64,000 bases of DNA from an uncultured Prochlorococcus sp. (GTDB taxonomy: Bacteria > Cyanobacteriota > Cyanobacteriia > PCC-6307 > Cyanobiaceae). This document shows, one piece after another, positions 3,709-11,520 of this stretch. Under the pieces are notes generated by a model that was given only the letters and a program-made list of their open reading frames with translations, did no database searches and was not told the origin of the DNA. A program made the translations under genes and the position numbers. The stretch spans positions 1 to 64,000 of the forward strand of contig CABZHQ010000002.1 in NCBI GenBank assembly GCA_902525585.1. Reading direction: 5' to 3'. Position 1 is the stretch's first letter, and every line of letters begins with the position of its first letter.

Positions 3709-4923
3709 TTATTTATTTAACTTTTTAGATGCTTTAATTGCATCAACTTGATCATAAGTACTGTTGTATATCCTGAAATGGGTATTGATATCATGACCAA
3801 GACTTTTACTTGCAGCCCTTGCATCAATATCTGCATGAATACTTCTTATACCCCAATGATGTCTAACTGAGGTTAACTGTAAATTGTCTATTCCTAATTC
3901 TCTAGCTCTAGGTTTTAAGTACCTAAGCCACTGATTTCCTAGATATTTTACTTGAGATGGACTGTAACTATTTAAGTCAAAGGAATATGGTCTTTCAATA
4001 TTTTCAAGTTCCCACTTTTCGGCAAGTTCCTTAGTAAGTGCGATTGGATATTTAAGATGCATTGCTTTTTTAGCTTTTGGAATATTAACAGAAGTAGCAG
4101 TTCCGCTAGCGATATCAGGCACTAGTGAAAAAGTTTCTCCTGATCTTGTACCGTAAACATATTGTGCAGCGGTCAACCATCCCCATTTCTTATTATCTCT
4201 AACCATATCTATAAGTTGAACAAATTTATGTTCATCAATAGGTGACTTAGTTTTTGGAATATAACTCCCAACAAATTTATCAATTTTATCTAAATTTTCT
4301 ATTCCATTTAAAAGTCCAAGTTTTTTATAGAATTGACAAAGTTTTCTTCTTTTATCCGACTCGGGATGAGAATCATACTGTATAGAATCTAATAATAATT
4401 CAAGAGTAAGAACTGCGTTTTGAGGAAGTTTCTTTAAGTAATTAGCTTGTAAATTCCAGGTTCTTTGCTTTATTTCTTTATTTCTATCTTTATCCTTCCA
4501 GTACTCTATTTCTAGTTTTGAGATACCCTCTGCAACGGTAATACCTCCACCTGAGATTTCTACTTTTGGCGCATCCCATAAAAGTTCCTCAGGGATAAAT
4601 CCATTTTTTTTTATGTATTCCATCAGTTGCAAAATTCTTGCTTCAGCTGAAACTAAATTAGAAATATCAGTAGACAATCTAAGTGGAATCTTCCTATCTT
4701 TTCTGGCCCCTTTGCTATCTGTGAAAGTTCCCCTGATGTATAAATAGTTTTGTTTAGATAATATTCGTGCTTTTATACTTCTTTCTTTGAATTTCTCATT
4801 CAATTCTTCTATCTTTTTCTTCAATAGTTCCGAATCTGGTTCCGAATTTCCCACTGCATCAACATCACCTAAGGTATTAACACCAGACTTTCTTTTGTTA
4901 ATATTTGCTGATTTTTTACTCAT
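3709..4923 (-). CDS. Tyrosine recombinase / site-specific integrase
   Basis: C-terminal catalytic motifs: 'YGTRSGE', 'VRHHWGIR' (HxxR-like), 'LGHDINTHFRIYNSTY' (H...Y); adjacent to tRNA-Ser. Confidence 0.85.
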   Translation of the reverse strand: MSKKSANINKRKSGVNTLGDVDAVGNSEPDSELLKKKIEELNEKFKERSIKARILSKQNYLYIRGTFTDSKGARKDRKIPLRLSTDISNLVSAEARILQLMEYIKKNGFIPEELLWDAPKVEISGGGITVAEGISKLEIEYWKDKDRNKEIKQRTWNLQANYLKKLPQNAVLTLELLLDSIQYDSHPESDKRRKLCQFYKKLGLLNGIENLDKIDKFVGSYIPKTKSPIDEHKFVQLIDMVRDNKKWGWLTAAQYVYGTRSGETFSLVPDIASGTATSVNIPKAKKAMHLKYPIALTKELAEKWELENIERPYSFDLNSYSPSQVKYLGNQWLRYLKPRARELGIDNLQLTSVRHHWGIRSIHADIDARAASKSLGHDINTHFRIYNSTYDQVDAIKASKKLNK

Positions 4924-4960
4924 TTAACAAGAAAAGAGGAGTTCCGAATAAGTTCCGAAT
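4827..4960. repeat. Four direct repeats GTTCCGAAT (4827, 4839, 4941, 4952)
   Basis: Exact 9-mers in two pairs with 12- and 11-bp spacing, spanning the integrase start. Confidence 0.7.
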
Positions 4961-5048
4961 TTATGCCCTTAAATGTCCCAAAATGTCCAGTATATGTCAA
5001 GGTTTATGAAATAATTAAAAATTTAAAAATCTTCGGCAATAAGGCTTA

Positions 5049-5109: not shown

Positions 5110-5196
5110 GGAGGGGTGGTCGAGTGGTTTAAGGCTCTAGTCTTGAAAACTAGCGTGTCTGCAAGGGCACCGTGGGTTCGAATCCCACCCCCTCCG
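5110..5196 (+). tRNA. tRNA-Ser (anticodon UGA)
   Basis: 87 nt; acceptor GGAGGGG/CCCCTCC plus discriminator G; anticodon loop CT-TGA-AA at 5142-5148; long variable arm; GGTTCGAATCC T-arm. Confidence 0.95.
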
Positions 5197-5197
5197 T
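5182..5197. repeat. Candidate att core 1 (ATCCCACCCCCTCCGT) in tRNA-Ser 3' end
   Basis: Exact 16-bp direct repeat with 6447-6462; 12 bp of it repeated at 11509-11520. Confidence 0.8.
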
Positions 5198-5208
5198 ACC
5201 AAGACATA

Positions 5209-5337
5209 TTCTCAGGAGTTCTCATAACTTCTCATATGTTCTCAAAATTATTTTAAAGCTTCCGAAAAGAAGATATATCCAGAATTAAACTTAACTTAGC
5301 CTTCTCATACTTTCTCATTCATACTCATATTTTCTCT
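5209..5337. repeat. Two blocks of four TTCTCA-like units with 10-bp period
   Basis: TTCTCA at 5209, 5219, 5229, 5239; TTCTCA at 5302, 5312, then TACTCA at 5322 and TTCTCT at 5332. Confidence 0.75.
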
Positions 5338-5344
5338 TCATTTT

Positions 5345-5385
5345 GGTAGGGGAAATGGTAGGGGTTTTGTTGTAATTGGTAGGGG
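5345..5385. repeat. GGTAGGGG repeats (5345, 5357, 5378)
   Basis: 5345-5364 GGTAGGGGAAATGGTAGGGG is identical to 6360-6379. Confidence 0.75.
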
Positions 5386-5447
5386 TACGAGTTCAGTTTT
5401 GAAATTCGATCTAAAATATATGGTAATAAGTTCTTTTTTGTGAAGAG

Positions 5448-6320
5448 ATGGATAAATCTGATTTTGATGAATATGGTGTTCAAAGAGAAAATACTAAATT
5501 AGATAATTTTTTAAAAAGAGATTCAACCGAATATATGAGATTGCAGGGTTCCGAAAAAACTCTTTTTAAGGAAAGACAAAATACAGAAATGTATGAGATG
5601 AAATCTAACGGGGAATATAAAAGAAGAGATTATGATGGAACACTAGTCCTTACTACAAGAAGGCTTACTTTCTCACTTTATTCTCCACGAGGTAGGGCAT
5701 CAATACTTGCAATGACACCATTAATGGGTTCTGCAAATTACAGATACGGACTCAAAGAGAAAGATTATATTATTTTTTCATACCCAACATTTTTATTGCT
5801 TGGTAAATTCATCAATAAAGCTCCTGATAAATTTTTAGGAATACAACTTGCTGATGATATTCAATGGATAATTGAAGATGAAAAAGTTAAGTTTATAATG
5901 CCTGCAATGCAGGAAGAAACTATTAAAAATATAAATGACATTCTTAGCTTGGAACTAGATCAATTTATCTACAAAATGATGTTCGGTTTTAAAGATACCG
6001 AACTGTATCAAAAATGGGATGAGTTTGCTGAAACTCAGGATAAAGAAGTACTTCTAAATAATTTATTAAAAGAGAATAATCATTTTAAATTTAAAAGATC
6101 TTCTTTATTAAAGAAAATTTTGCAAGAAGGTGAAACCACAAGAAAATCAAAGGATGAGAAAGAAAATTTGAAAAGTCCAGAAAAATCAATTCCTAAATTT
6201 GAAAGTGAAAAAACTTTCAGTTATGCAGATGAGCTTGGGAAACTTATAGATTTAAAAGAAAAGGGATTACTTACTGATGAAGAATTTAGTGCCGCTAAGG
6301 CTAAACTTTTAAATTTGTGA
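5448..6320 (+). CDS. SHOCT-domain protein with possible PH/GRAM-like N-terminal domain
   Basis: C-terminal 'YADELGKLIDLKEKGLLTDEEFSAAKAKLL' is a typical SHOCT motif; N-terminal 'DGTLVLTTRRLTF' is typical of bacterial PH-like domains. Confidence 0.65.
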   Translation: MDKSDFDEYGVQRENTKLDNFLKRDSTEYMRLQGSEKTLFKERQNTEMYEMKSNGEYKRRDYDGTLVLTTRRLTFSLYSPRGRASILAMTPLMGSANYRYGLKEKDYIIFSYPTFLLLGKFINKAPDKFLGIQLADDIQWIIEDEKVKFIMPAMQEETIKNINDILSLELDQFIYKMMFGFKDTELYQKWDEFAETQDKEVLLNNLLKENNHFKFKRSSLLKKILQEGETTRKSKDEKENLKSPEKSIPKFESEKTFSYADELGKLIDLKEKGLLTDEEFSAAKAKLLNL

Positions 6321-6359
6321 AACGCTTACTTTTTGAATAAAAATCGAGAGTTAAAAAGT

Positions 6360-6379
6360 GGTAGGGGAAATGGTAGGGG
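6360..6379. repeat. GGTAGGGGAAATGGTAGGGG, second copy
   Basis: Exact 20-bp match to 5345-5364; followed by TTCTCA at 6405 and 6415 (10-bp period) before candidate att core 2. Confidence 0.75.
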
Positions 6380-6446
6380 AAATGAAAATCGAACTCAGAA
6401 ATCGTTCTCATCCCTTCTCATAGCTTGTTATTTAGCATAAAAGCTG

Positions 6447-6462
6447 ATCCCACCCCCTCCGT
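6447..6462. repeat. Candidate att core 2 (ATCCCACCCCCTCCGT)
   Basis: 16-bp exact copy of the tRNA-Ser 3' end, in the same orientation. Confidence 0.8.
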
Positions 6463-6549
6463 TCTAATTACGAATCAGGAAATATCAGATCTAGTCAGAG
6501 TATCCGAGAAAGACTGGTATCAGAAAGTATCCAGTAAAATAAGATATTC

Positions 6550-6591
6550 ACACAAACATATAATTCAGATTTATGAATTATATGTTTGTGT
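6550..6591. terminator. Perfect 18-bp hairpin, probable terminator downstream of the RM operon
   Basis: ACACAAACATATAATTCA-GATTTA-TGAATTATATGTTTGTGT, followed by T-rich DNA. Confidence 0.65.
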
Positions 6592-6776
6592 TTTGTTTGT
6601 GTTTTTTACTTATGTGTTTGTGTTTTTTTTTGATTTTCTATTCTTTATTCCCCACATCTCAAAGTAATTCTGACCCTTCTCCATCGGAGTATTCTTAACC
6701 CAAACTAACTTTTTTCATTATTTCTGTTGTATTTGAAAGAGCATAGGTTTGGTTGCAGAAATTACTCATAATTGAA

Positions 6777-8585
6777 CTAGGTCACACTAAGTATTTCTGT
6801 TATATCATCTTGAAGTTTTCTTATTTCTTTGTTAAGTCCTTCCATCTCTTTTTCTTTCAATTTGAAACTTTCTATAAGTTCCTTCTGTGTGGATTCTGGA
6901 GGTATTGGTATTTCCATATCCTTAAATTTATCCATATCTAAATTCTTTTGACCAACTCCCCTGGTAAAGGAGTAAATTTCCTTCATTCTATATAACATAA
7001 CGTAATCCATGTACTCTTGAATAACGCCTTTATGCTGTTTTACTTTAATAGTGAGACCTGAGTCATTTAAAAAAAACTTTCCTTTTACCTTCCTTACGCA
7101 TATTTCTGAAATTGCAAATCTTCCAATAACTACTCTGTCTTCTCTGTTATATGGTCTATCAGTAATAAATGATGCGTCACCACCTCCATATACATCATAT
7201 GTGGTACCTGTGTCATTTTTTTTTGTTATTCTGGTTCCATATTCTATTTGTGCTAACTCAGACAACTTATCAGTTGGGTATATAGATGAGATTTTAAAAT
7301 TCACATCATGATTCTCTAAAGGGAATTCAAAGTTTTTCTTTTTAGATATTTCTTTTTTCGTGATTGAATATTCATTATTTTGCGGATTTTTTAGATAATT
7401 TTTTACAATCTTAGAACATTTGGGAAGATCATTTTCTTTGATTGGAAGTCTCTGATCCCCAAGAGAGAACCCATCATTATTTATTTGAAAATAGAAAATC
7501 TGGTCAGTTTTTTTAAATAATAATTTATCCAAAAAAAGTATGTAAGTTTTAGCGGGAGTATATGGTTTAAAAACCCCTCTTGGTAGAGAAACAATTCCTA
7601 CAAGGGACTCATTAATAAGTGATTTTCTTAGACCAACATAATCCTTGTCTTTTCTAAATAATATTCCTTCTGGGACTATTATTGCTGCCCTACCTTTTGG
7701 AGTTAAGTGCTCATTGATGTAACTTGTAAATAATATCTCTGCTTTTTTTGAAGAAAGTGCAAATCTGTTATGAGGTTTAATTCCTCCTGTTGGAGTAAAG
7801 AACGGAGGATTTGCAAGAATTAAATCAAAGTATTCGTTCCATTTTGAATCATCTGAGAGAGTGTCATATTCGGAAATTTTTGGTTCACTTATGTTGTGTA
7901 AGTACATGTTAACAAGTGATGCCTTGATCATGCCTGGTTCAATATCGTAACCATGTATGTTTTTAGAAACATTAATTTTTTCTTCTAGGGAAATATTTTT
8001 GGCAAGAATGTATTTATAAGCAGAGATTAAAAATCCCGCAGTTCCACATGCTGGATCTAAAATTCTTTCATTTGGTTTTGGTTCGAGAAGTTCAACAATG
8101 AAATCAATTATATGTCTTGGGGTTCTAAATTGACCCAACTCTCCCTGCGATCCAGTTATTTTTAAAAGATGTTCGTATGCCGAACCCAAATCTTCAGAAT
8201 TATCATATGAGATTTGATCTAATACTATAAAAAACTCATTAAAAGTCTTGGGATCATCAATTATGCTCGGAATGTTTGAAAAAATATCTCTAAATAATTT
8301 TTCTATTGACTTTTCATTCGCGATTGCGTCAATGCCTTTTTTGAATATGTCTAATTTATCTGCACTACTATTCTTAGTATTCTTGATTTGGTCCCATGAG
8401 AACTCCTCTAAACTCCCTTTAAAAAAGTTTTTCTTGCCACCCCATGAAAGTGATTTATTGTCCATGTCATTCATGAACTTATACATAAGACCTAAAGTTA
8501 TTTGCTCCACTTGTCTCTGTGGGTCAGGGAACTTCCCAACAAGAATGTTTCTTAAAGTATTAACTTTATTTATTACTTCTGACAT
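6777..8585 (-). CDS. hsdM: Type I restriction-modification methyltransferase (HsdM) fused to a C-terminal specificity-type domain
   Basis: N-terminal HsdM helical region, 'GQFRTPRHIIDFIVELLEP', SAM motif 'ILDPACGTAGFLISA', 'NPPF' motif; C-terminal 'GYGTRITKKNDTGTTYDVYGGGDASF...KDMEIPIPPESTQKELIESFKLKEKEMEGLNKEI' is HsdS-like (one TRD plus conserved helix). Confidence 0.88.
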   Translation of the reverse strand: MSEVINKVNTLRNILVGKFPDPQRQVEQITLGLMYKFMNDMDNKSLSWGGKKNFFKGSLEEFSWDQIKNTKNSSADKLDIFKKGIDAIANEKSIEKLFRDIFSNIPSIIDDPKTFNEFFIVLDQISYDNSEDLGSAYEHLLKITGSQGELGQFRTPRHIIDFIVELLEPKPNERILDPACGTAGFLISAYKYILAKNISLEEKINVSKNIHGYDIEPGMIKASLVNMYLHNISEPKISEYDTLSDDSKWNEYFDLILANPPFFTPTGGIKPHNRFALSSKKAEILFTSYINEHLTPKGRAAIIVPEGILFRKDKDYVGLRKSLINESLVGIVSLPRGVFKPYTPAKTYILFLDKLLFKKTDQIFYFQINNDGFSLGDQRLPIKENDLPKCSKIVKNYLKNPQNNEYSITKKEISKKKNFEFPLENHDVNFKISSIYPTDKLSELAQIEYGTRITKKNDTGTTYDVYGGGDASFITDRPYNREDRVVIGRFAISEICVRKVKGKFFLNDSGLTIKVKQHKGVIQEYMDYVMLYRMKEIYSFTRGVGQKNLDMDKFKDMEIPIPPESTQKELIESFKLKEKEMEGLNKEIRKLQDDITEILSVT

Positions 8586-8594
8586 GTCTGATTT

Positions 8595-11030
8595 TTACAA
8601 TAATGTTTCAACCATTTGAGGGATTTTGTTAATTAATTCAGGTGATACTTTTCCTATACTTTCTGTACCAAGAGGATGATTGAAGAGTTTTCCATATTCT
8701 TTATTTTTAATGATTTCTCTATAATCCTCAGATTCATAACATGATAAAAATAAATCTTTAGCAGCGTCAAATTCCATCTCATCTATATCATTTTTAATTG
8801 AAAAATCATAAAAACTATCATCAAGATATTCATTTTTTGTTTTGATATGATCGATATGTCCAAATATATATAGGAGCAGTTCCTTCTTAGAAATTCTTCT
8901 GTCAACTCCAATAGATTCCTGTAATCTGTGTATACTATATTGATCATTTTTTGTTAAAAACTCTCTATCTAATAATTCTTCTGCTTTCTCAAAGTTCATC
9001 TTAGTAACGTTATCTCTAATAGCGGCATTATCCCTAACTTTCTCAGAGAATTTGGGATATAAATCCCTGTCTATTTTCATGACATTTTTTCCTAACTCAA
9101 TCTCAACTATTGATTCAATTGGATCTCTTTGATTGGTTTTAATCTCATCAATAACTCTTGTTTCTTTCCCATCTCCTCCACCGACTGTTGGAAGTGGCAA
9201 TATTTCATCATATTGATAATCTTGTTCAAAAAACTCATAATTGCCCATGAAGTCAAATAAAAAAAATGTATTTTTTTTTGTATTTAGCGAGTTACGACTA
9301 TCGTTTTTTACTTTGATGCACTCTTTGAAATCAAAGGTTCTTGTTCCTCTTCCTTTCATTTGAATAAAATCTGTTGGAGAAAAAATTGGTCTCATCAAGC
9401 ATATATTAAGTATATCTTCGCAATCGTAACCAGTAGTCATCATCCCAACAGTTACGCAAACCCTTGTTTTTGAAGATTTATAATTTTCATCAAACTTAGA
9501 GTTGCCGTTTAAACTATTTCTTAGATTACTAAAGTTAACTGTCATCTCCTGAGAATTAATGACAAAGGAGGTAACTTGCTCTGCAAAATCAGAATTATAA
9601 AGGTTTGGGAATTTTTTATGTGCCATTTCATTTAATATTTGAGTGACTCTAGATGCATGGTCTTGAGAAGCACAAAAAATTAATGTTTTTCCTATTTCCT
9701 CTGTGACAGGGTCTTTTTTTGCATGCTCCATAAATATCTTGCAAAACATTTTATTCGTGTCTGCTGAGAAAAATTTTTTTTCAAAATCAGATCTTTTGAA
9801 TATTGAATCAATATCATTTCCTTCACTATCTTGTGTTTGAAATATTAGACCCTTTTCTGAGAGCATTTGAGTCGTCAGTTCTGTGGTTGCCTTAATTACC
9901 CGAGGGTTAATAAGGTACCCCTCCTTAACTCCATCTTCAAGCGAATACCTATAAGTGGGAGTTCCTTCACTGCATCCAAATGTAGTGTAGGTGTCTTTTT
10001 GAAGTCTCTCTTCAAGTTGTTTTGGGTCAGTTGTAAGCAGGGAGTTAGTGTTTACAGATTTTAAAAAATTTCTAGGTGTGGCAGTAAGTCCCAACTTAAA
10101 TCCATTGAAATACTCAAAGACTCTTTTTTGTACTAATCCCAGAGATCTATGAGACTCATCTGAAATCACTAAATCAAAATCATTGTGCGTAAATATTTTT
10201 TCAAATTTATTTTTTCTTATAAATGATTGAATGGTTGAAACAACTATCTTTGCATTTCTCCAACTATCTTTATTTTCTTTCCAAATTAATGTTTTAAAAT
10301 CGTTCTTAAGCAATGATGAGAAAGAACTTTCCGTTTGCTCCTCTAATTCAACCCTGTCTACCAAAAATAATACTCTCTTTACATTAAATAGTCTAAAAAA
10401 CATTTTTATAATTGCTGCTGATGTAAGCGTTTTACCTGTTCCTGTCGCCATTTCGAGCAAAAATCTTGTTTGCCCCTCTTTTATGCTTTTTTTAACGGCA
10501 TGAAGTGCATCTAGTTGATAATCTCTAAGAAACTTAAGTTTATTTTTCGAAATAAAGTCTTCTCTTGTTGTTTCATCTATGAAGTCTACTTGTTCTGAAT
10601 AATTGCTCATAATAGATAGAGCAATATAATCTTTATCTATCTTCTCATTATTCGATATATCTGGTTTAAAAGAGTCTCTGCACTGGATTAATTTTTCTTG
10701 AGATGGGAATGTATCAATTGGTTGTGGGTTCCCATACCTAATATCCCATAGATAATGATTTACTCCATTAGATAAAATAACGAAAGGGCAATTTAATGTT
10801 TTGGCATATTTTTTTGCTTGTTTTTTTGCTGAGAGTGGATTTATTAATTCTTTCTTTGCTTCCAATGTGCATAAGTGATAATTGTTCTTATCAAGCATTA
10901 CATAGTCAGCAGATCCGGATTCGTTTGATAATTCTGTTATTACATTAGGTTTTTCTTGGTCCTCAAGAATCCAACCTGAATGCCTCAGCATGTCATTAAT
11001 TATTATTCTGGATTTCGATTCTTTTGCCAT
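8595..11030 (-). CDS. hsdR: Type I restriction endonuclease subunit R
   Basis: ORF 8595..11129; likely start is MAKESKSRI at 11030. PD-(D/E)xK-like 'SADYVMLDKNNYHLCTLEAKK', Walker A 'MATGTGKT', 'SDESHRS', 'QMKGRGTRT', EcoEI_R-type C-terminus. Confidence 0.9.
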   Translation of the reverse strand: MAKESKSRIIINDMLRHSGWILEDQEKPNVITELSNESGSADYVMLDKNNYHLCTLEAKKELINPLSAKKQAKKYAKTLNCPFVILSNGVNHYLWDIRYGNPQPIDTFPSQEKLIQCRDSFKPDISNNEKIDKDYIALSIMSNYSEQVDFIDETTREDFISKNKLKFLRDYQLDALHAVKKSIKEGQTRFLLEMATGTGKTLTSAAIIKMFFRLFNVKRVLFLVDRVELEEQTESSFSSLLKNDFKTLIWKENKDSWRNAKIVVSTIQSFIRKNKFEKIFTHNDFDLVISDESHRSLGLVQKRVFEYFNGFKLGLTATPRNFLKSVNTNSLLTTDPKQLEERLQKDTYTTFGCSEGTPTYRYSLEDGVKEGYLINPRVIKATTELTTQMLSEKGLIFQTQDSEGNDIDSIFKRSDFEKKFFSADTNKMFCKIFMEHAKKDPVTEEIGKTLIFCASQDHASRVTQILNEMAHKKFPNLYNSDFAEQVTSFVINSQEMTVNFSNLRNSLNGNSKFDENYKSSKTRVCVTVGMMTTGYDCEDILNICLMRPIFSPTDFIQMKGRGTRTFDFKECIKVKNDSRNSLNTKKNTFFLFDFMGNYEFFEQDYQYDEILPLPTVGGGDGKETRVIDEIKTNQRDPIESIVEIELGKNVMKIDRDLYPKFSEKVRDNAAIRDNVTKMNFEKAEELLDREFLTKNDQYSIHRLQESIGVDRRISKKELLLYIFGHIDHIKTKNEYLDDSFYDFSIKNDIDEMEFDAAKDLFLSCYESEDYREIIKNKEYGKLFNHPLGTESIGKVSPELINKIPQMVETLL

Positions 11031-11508
11031 AAAATAAATTCTGCCATAACTTTTTATAAATTTCCTAATAAGTGCACATAAGAGACCACAAAAAGTCATA
11101 TCAAATCCAAAAACTTCGGTTAACTTCAAAAATGGGTGAAATTTTTTGGGTTATTTTTACTAGGATTAATTTCTAGTAATTTTTAAAACCCCCAATTCAA
11201 AAAATTAGGGTGTTTTTTAATGACTAAAATTTTTAGAGTGTTACTCAGTACGTATCAATTAAATTACTTCACTCTTTAGAATTGCCTTTATTGCTTGATT
11301 TAGGTGTAGGAGAGATTTTACTTAATCAGTGGAAACAAGGATACACTTTATTAAGTAAGACCAAAAAAAATACCCTTAGAAATAGGGGTCTTTTTTTATA
11401 TTTTTAAAGTTTTTTGTGTTTGTGTTTTGTTTGTTTTTTTTATAATATTGGTTCAGGAAACCTCGTCAGATTAGTTCTGGACTGGTCACTCTAACCTGAT
11501 GCGACTGA

Positions 11509-11520
11509 CACCCCCTCCGT
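11509..11520. repeat. Candidate att core 3 (CACCCCCTCCGT)
   Basis: 12-bp exact match to the tRNA-Ser 3' terminus, same orientation; likely distal boundary of the island. Confidence 0.65.

Follow-up and report, generated by a model that had tools for sequence, protein, structure and literature searches.

Helically phased direct repeats beside a tRNA gene raise the question of which protein they serve and what kind of DNA they border. We addressed this question at a tRNA-Ser(UGA) gene in 64,000 nucleotides of an uncultured Prochlorococcus sp. (hereafter, the window), where the original prediction had pointed to TTCTCA repeats next to a tRNA att site. In our reading, to which we assign a probability of about 0.8, these arrays are the attL and attR arms of an integrative element, small and without an integrase of its own, that sits at the 3' end of this tRNA and would be served in trans by a P4-type integrase.

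Results

Anatomy of the element

The target gene, tRNA-Ser(UGA), was placed by ARAGORN at positions 5110-5196 of the forward strand, on which all features of element 1 are also given. A 16-bp att core (ATCCCACCCCCTCCGT; core 1, 5182-5197) starts in the T-loop, covers the 3' end of the tRNA and stops 1 nt beyond it. It is directly repeated as core 2 (6447-6462), which forms both the end of element 1 and the start of element 2. Element 1 (5198-6462) is 1.27 kb long and has one plausible gene (5448-6320), encoding 290 aa with a C-terminal SHOCT domain; this gene is its sole content, and no integrase was found within the element by inspection of ORFs and domain search.

TTCTCA arrays lie close to both cores. 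On the left, array 1 (5209-5244) has four copies, at 5209, 5219, 5229 and 5239, and is found with substitutions in 12 genomes, while array 2 (5302-5337) has TTCTCA at 5302 and 5312, TACTCA at 5322 and TTCTCT at 5332. The right array (6405-6420) has two copies, at 6405 and 6415, and three in genomes G132, G152 and G176. Direct reading of the sequence confirmed all of the TTCTCA coordinates first reported, including the two further copies before core 2, and the period is exactly 10 bp within every group. Same-face direct repeats do flank both att cores, as had been expected of recombinase-arm or recombination directionality factor (RDF) sites.

A second motif, GGTAGGGG, was overlooked in the original prediction. 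It lies outside the TTCTCA arrays and farther from the core on both sides, forming putative distal arm sites at 5345, 5357 and 5378 on the left (5345-5385; spacing 12 and 21) and at 6360 and 6372 on the right (6360-6379; spacing 12). Element 1 combines two features of a P4-type integrase att site, a short tRNA 3'-end core and a 3+2 set of arm-type sites (12/21 and 12), with the CIME-type feature of retaining attL and attR after the loss of integration genes. Ahead of the cargo gene, TTTTGAAATTCGATCTAAAAT (5395-5423) resembles by eye the stretch upstream of other cassettes' cargo and may act as a promoter. A promoter-like sequence, TTGACAGTCGATCTAAAATAAGGGGCAATTAGCTCC, precedes cargo, whole or in part, in cassettes of both core types (window 5395-5423 and survey flanks).

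Rarity of phased TTCTCA

The pattern TTCTCAN4TTCTCA has five matches in the window, where chance predicts 0.02, and each of 100 shuffled sequences gave fewer than five. Genome-wide there are seven matches, all on a single strand, and a reversed-pattern control gave none. The two matches outside the window (L121 and L122) are taken as chance because, by eye, they sit in apparent coding genes. Among 266 genomes of the genus, seven have a triple TTCTCA, and six of these are the same element at tRNA-Ser(UGA). The seventh, in G250 (L120, position 3945), was rejected as a copy of the element; there a slipped repeat of TTCTCAGACT, with no relation to the element, lies about 2 kb away from tRNA-Pro. 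The original prediction had named two outcomes that would count against it, equal density of 10-bp-phased TTCTCA elsewhere in the genome and absence of arrays from homologous elements; neither was found. Conservation by itself does not mark the left-array motifs as protein sites, since the motifs (0.05 and 0.07) are not singled out from the sequence between the arrays (0.05).

Viral collections gave no match to the element's end pattern. A scan for triple TTCTCA returned 46 stretches, none with an att core or the element layout; GGTAGGGG doublets, among the matches listed, were mostly uninformative low-complexity repeats, and phage BLAST with a cargo-free element returned mostly weak tRNA-like fragments. 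In a related marine viral group (L074, L076 and L112), TTCTCA arrays lie near a lysozyme-like gene, and no integrase or tRNA was seen there.

Distribution, cargo and mobility

BLAST located the same ends at tRNA-Ser(UGA) in 12 of 266 Prochlorococcus genomes, a count that leaves out five more genomes with weak matches. Their cores repeat 13-17 bp of the 3' end of the tRNA, and between these short cores the cargo varies from one to several ORFs, or is lacking altogether. The cargo-free elements of G152, G176 and G186 are about 240 bp long, and a 168-bp deletion form in G165 has lost GGTAGGGG. In G069 and G027, no single contig was seen to hold both ends complete. No integrase was recognised in a 5-kb relative in G187, which encodes a PD-(D/E)XK/Cas4-like protein and another protein that matches SLATT weakly, perhaps with a role in defence (L286, 6667-9543). 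At one G186 locus (L060, contig C15), tRNA and array positions are identical whichever strand is read; this inverted duplication probably arose during assembly.

The variation in cargo bears on two other explanations of the arrays. They could be operators or promoter elements regulating the cargo gene, given that the left arrays sit between tRNA and cargo and that binding sites of integrases and RDFs often serve as operators as well. The right end, which lies downstream of the cargo, also has arrays, however, and both ends are kept in cargo-free elements (L060, L064 and L065); the phasing tracks the att core and not the gene start, and we regard regulation of the cargo as highly improbable. 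Iterons, too, resemble 10-12-bp phased direct repeats, and an excised circle might need replication for its spread. The chance that the arrays are replication iterons of such a circle is slimmer still, as the element has no recognisable replication initiator and the arrays flank a recombination core on both sides in elements with unrelated cargo.

The tRNA-Ser(UGA) survey comprised 83 sites, 60 taken in listing order and 23 picked earlier for arrays or a recombinase; 25 of the 83 are empty, with a chromosomal gene directly after the tRNA. Between G186 and other carriers, the non-coding ends of the element share 90-96% identity, against 70-75% for neighbouring chromosomal genes, and across 28 pairs end identity and host identity are uncorrelated (-0.03). 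Because the ends are far more alike than their hosts and the two identities are uncorrelated, the pattern is the one expected of horizontal transfer rather than descent.

Two observations concern cargo. A near-identical signal peptide (MKRLLIPLLAALALPTAVNAE-like) is joined to seemingly unrelated mature parts in the cargo of L050, L051, L052, L061, L063, L049, L370 and L286. One small gene (MLRKKEKQTLTRLFLLGVGAPIGLDRFYEGD...) occurs in elements of differing end types (L289, 5205-5438; L290, 2974-3201; L065, 10597-10824), and cargo therefore appears to move between arm types.

A shared 3+2 arm layout

The 3+2 layout recurs, with other motifs, in element 2 and in 5-7-kb elements at three other tRNA genes, which encode an arm-binding integrase of P4 type; the integrase-encoding elements compared lie at tRNA-Asn(GUU), Ser(GCU), Ser(CGA) and Ser(UGA). 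The comparison has 22 rows, each an element (one with two core choices), with motifs picked by eye for each element. In most rows the left distal sites start about 113-156 bp from the core with spacing of 11/12 and then 21/22, and the right distal pair, spaced 11/12, starts about 70-93 bp before core 2. L380, G061, G007 and G001 differ in the number or spacing of sites, and in G017, G107 and G184 a single right site matches exactly. Elements of other types in the surveyed tRNA-Ser(UGA) flanks have different motifs at the same places.

Phasing near the core was also assessed across elements, with expected pair counts derived from dinucleotide shuffles. In the first 160 bp after the core, 18 element-bearing sites have 45 TCA/CCA pairs at 10 bp against 4.2 expected (z 20), and 40 against 3.9 without the window; the 25 empty sites have 0 against 2.0. 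In 4-mer periodicity, periods 10, 11 and 12 stand out (z 10, 7 and 7) and no other among 6-16. These z-scores are descriptive, as TCA/CCA was chosen after looking and, with several of the elements related, the scores overstate independence. The empty-site group gave smaller peaks at other periods because its sequences are homologous. At integrase loci, short flanks and strict 6-mer runs yielded almost no arrays, which were revealed by wider regions and looser spacing.

Element 2 is stacked in tandem with element 1 at the same tRNA, with core 2 common to both. It has a left proximal array of TCA at 6475, 6485 and 6495 (6475-6497; 10-bp period) and putative distal sites of GTTTGTG at 6584, 6595 and 6616 on the left (6584-6622; spacing 11 and 21), with GTTTGTG at 11418 and GTTTGTT at 11429 on the right (11418-11435), all on the forward strand. 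Its cargo, on the reverse strand (6777-11129), consists of restriction-modification genes (N6_Mtase with Methylase_S; ResIII with HSDR_N_2). Beyond core 3 (CACCCCCTCCGT; 11509-11520, forward strand) the chromosome resumes, and the downstream DNA resembles the empty sites of G150 and G128.

Domain matches of the integrases in related elements are to Phage_integrase or to the SAM and central domains of that family. For Arm-DNA-bind_3, the match is above the cut-off in L379 and weak in L375 and L380, and the excisionase AlpA is clear in L373 and L379. The elements at L370, L373, L375, L379, L380 and L053 also have a serine resolvase-like gene (~190-230 aa) and small DNA-binding-like proteins. A partial scan of the ORFs of integrase-encoding relatives noted no conjugation genes. 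The search for an integrase with arms of the GGTAGGGG/TTCTCA kind found none: within the genus, the doublet of GGTAGGGG is confined to the elements described here, and viral collections scanned with two integrases gave no match. A P4-type integrase (E <= 1e-12) is present in one of the 12 carrier genomes (G165), many of which are incomplete; G027 and G118 are near complete.

The neighbouring recombinase

A tyrosine recombinase is encoded on the reverse strand at 3709-4923, 186 bp from the tRNA, and the original prediction had proposed it as a possible partner of the arrays. It could bind them and move the element; some cassettes adjoining such recombinases likewise lack an integrase and have 10-bp arrays. 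Several comparisons argue against this. Elements beside recombinases of this type, whose relatives use an anticodon-loop core, have tRNA duplications of 41-64 bp with a boundary at the anticodon stem-loop, whereas the duplication here is 16 bp. The recombinase also has phased arrays of its own between gene and tRNA (4942-4998, no strand assigned), with TTCCGAAT at 4942 and 4953 (11 bp) and TGTCC/TGTCA at 4974, 4984 and 4994 (10 bp), which are conserved with the gene in most related loci. A gene of this kind is missing next to the tRNA at most TTCTCA elements, the near-complete genomes G118 and G027 have TTCTCA elements and no close copy of it, and relatives 95% and 89% identical to it adjoin elements with other motifs. 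Because its relatives use a different tRNA sub-site and it has its own phased arrays, this recombinase is probably a neighbour and an unlikely partner of the TTCTCA arrays, and that proposal was not supported. The division of tRNA genes into anticodon and T-stem sub-sites is known (Islander, PMC4383910).

Two features were seen at anticodon-core loci. Cassettes at L050, L051, L052 and others have a terminator-like hairpin and T run (CTCCTTTTAGGAGTTTTTTT) directly after the restored tRNA. Remnants of the tRNA 5' half (about nt 1-44) lie ~7-11 kb upstream of the tRNA in L052, L055, L056 and L058 and are probably the far ends of recombinase-carrying elements.

Discussion

The layout shared with integrase-carrying sister elements suggests how such cassettes probably move. 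In circular form, the element would have a single attP of ~300 bp, made up of the core, TTCTCA arrays of 10-bp period near it on each side, and five G-rich distal sites divided three and two between the arms. A P4-type tyrosine integrase (Int) supplied in trans would place its N-terminal arm-binding domain on the distal sites and its catalytic part on the core. On the TTCTCA arrays, either an AlpA-like directionality factor would form a same-face filament or Int would make further contacts, bending the DNA and setting the direction of recombination. The cargo between the arms could be swapped or lost.

We infer the pairing of proteins with motifs from the domains of the integrase-encoding relatives and the parallel with ICEMlSymR7A; supply of the integrase in trans is likewise a proposal. 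On these grounds the arms most likely serve a P4-type integrase (GGTAGGGG) and, in the case of TTCTCA, either its directionality factor or a further contact by Int. Taken separately, the distal sites quite probably belong to Int. For the TTCTCA arrays a directionality factor has roughly even odds, a reading countered by their presence on both arms, as RDF sites normally occupy one arm only; attribution of the arrays to Int is the more doubtful of the two, at perhaps one chance in three.

We put forward, tentatively and at somewhat less than even odds, a wider proposal: that the tRNA genes of Prochlorococcus are home to a large and diversified pool of cassettes that lack an integrase, are built on one att scaffold and are moved in trans by P4-type integrases. 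If true, that scaffold would be a 10-bp array with 3+2 distal sites in which arm motifs and cargo are both swappable, a tRNA-based counterpart of integron cassettes. Cassettes at tRNA genes, many without an integrase, add to gene-content differences in streamlined ocean bacteria. A recognisable arm code, with fixed 3+2 spacing and a varying motif, would allow cassettes and integrases to be matched from sequence alone, and would offer a route to elements as small as about 170-250 bp that are invisible to gene-based searches.

Some of this is already known. Integrase-less elements are familiar as CIMEs, and tRNA-anchored cassettes have been described in marine bacteria. Unlike an integron gene cassette, the TTCTCA element has ends made of core and arms, not a single foldable attC. 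Tycheposons of Prochlorococcus target tRNAs and carry cargo, and the 3709-4923 recombinase may belong to one; the TTCTCA element differs in having no tyrosine recombinase of that type, a gene also absent near most of its relatives, and in using a different part of the tRNA. Accounts of marine additive flexible genomic islands and tRNA cassettes describe genes added at a tRNA and marked by repeated tRNA parts; the portions of these accounts considered here treat repeats and cargo, with no mention of phased arms or of a connection with any type of integrase (PMC10872708, PMC4119200, PMC7771536). CIMEs keep attL and attR after losing their integration genes, and they are found stacked in tandem with further elements at a single target (PMC5704250). 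TTCTCA elements resemble them in all three respects, but show no sign of conjugation genes and form a family of short elements with varied cargo rather than a single decayed ICE.

The nearest studied parallel is ICEMlSymR7A, a P4-type system with its core at a tRNA 3' end. Its integrase, IntS, requires five arm sites with the consensus TGKTGGTATC, and its directionality factor RdfS, a small winged-HTH protein, forms oligomers and binds close to an arm site of attL (PMC11963761). The attP of the element described here would be alike in its tRNA 3'-end core and its five arm-type sites with a similar G-rich motif, the IntS consensus resembling distal motifs such as TGTTGGTGGATT. TTCTCA-type elements differ from ICEMlSymR7A in lacking an integrase or RDF gene, in their size of 0.2-5 kb, in a changed arm motif and in having, to either side of the core, an additional long array of 10-bp period.
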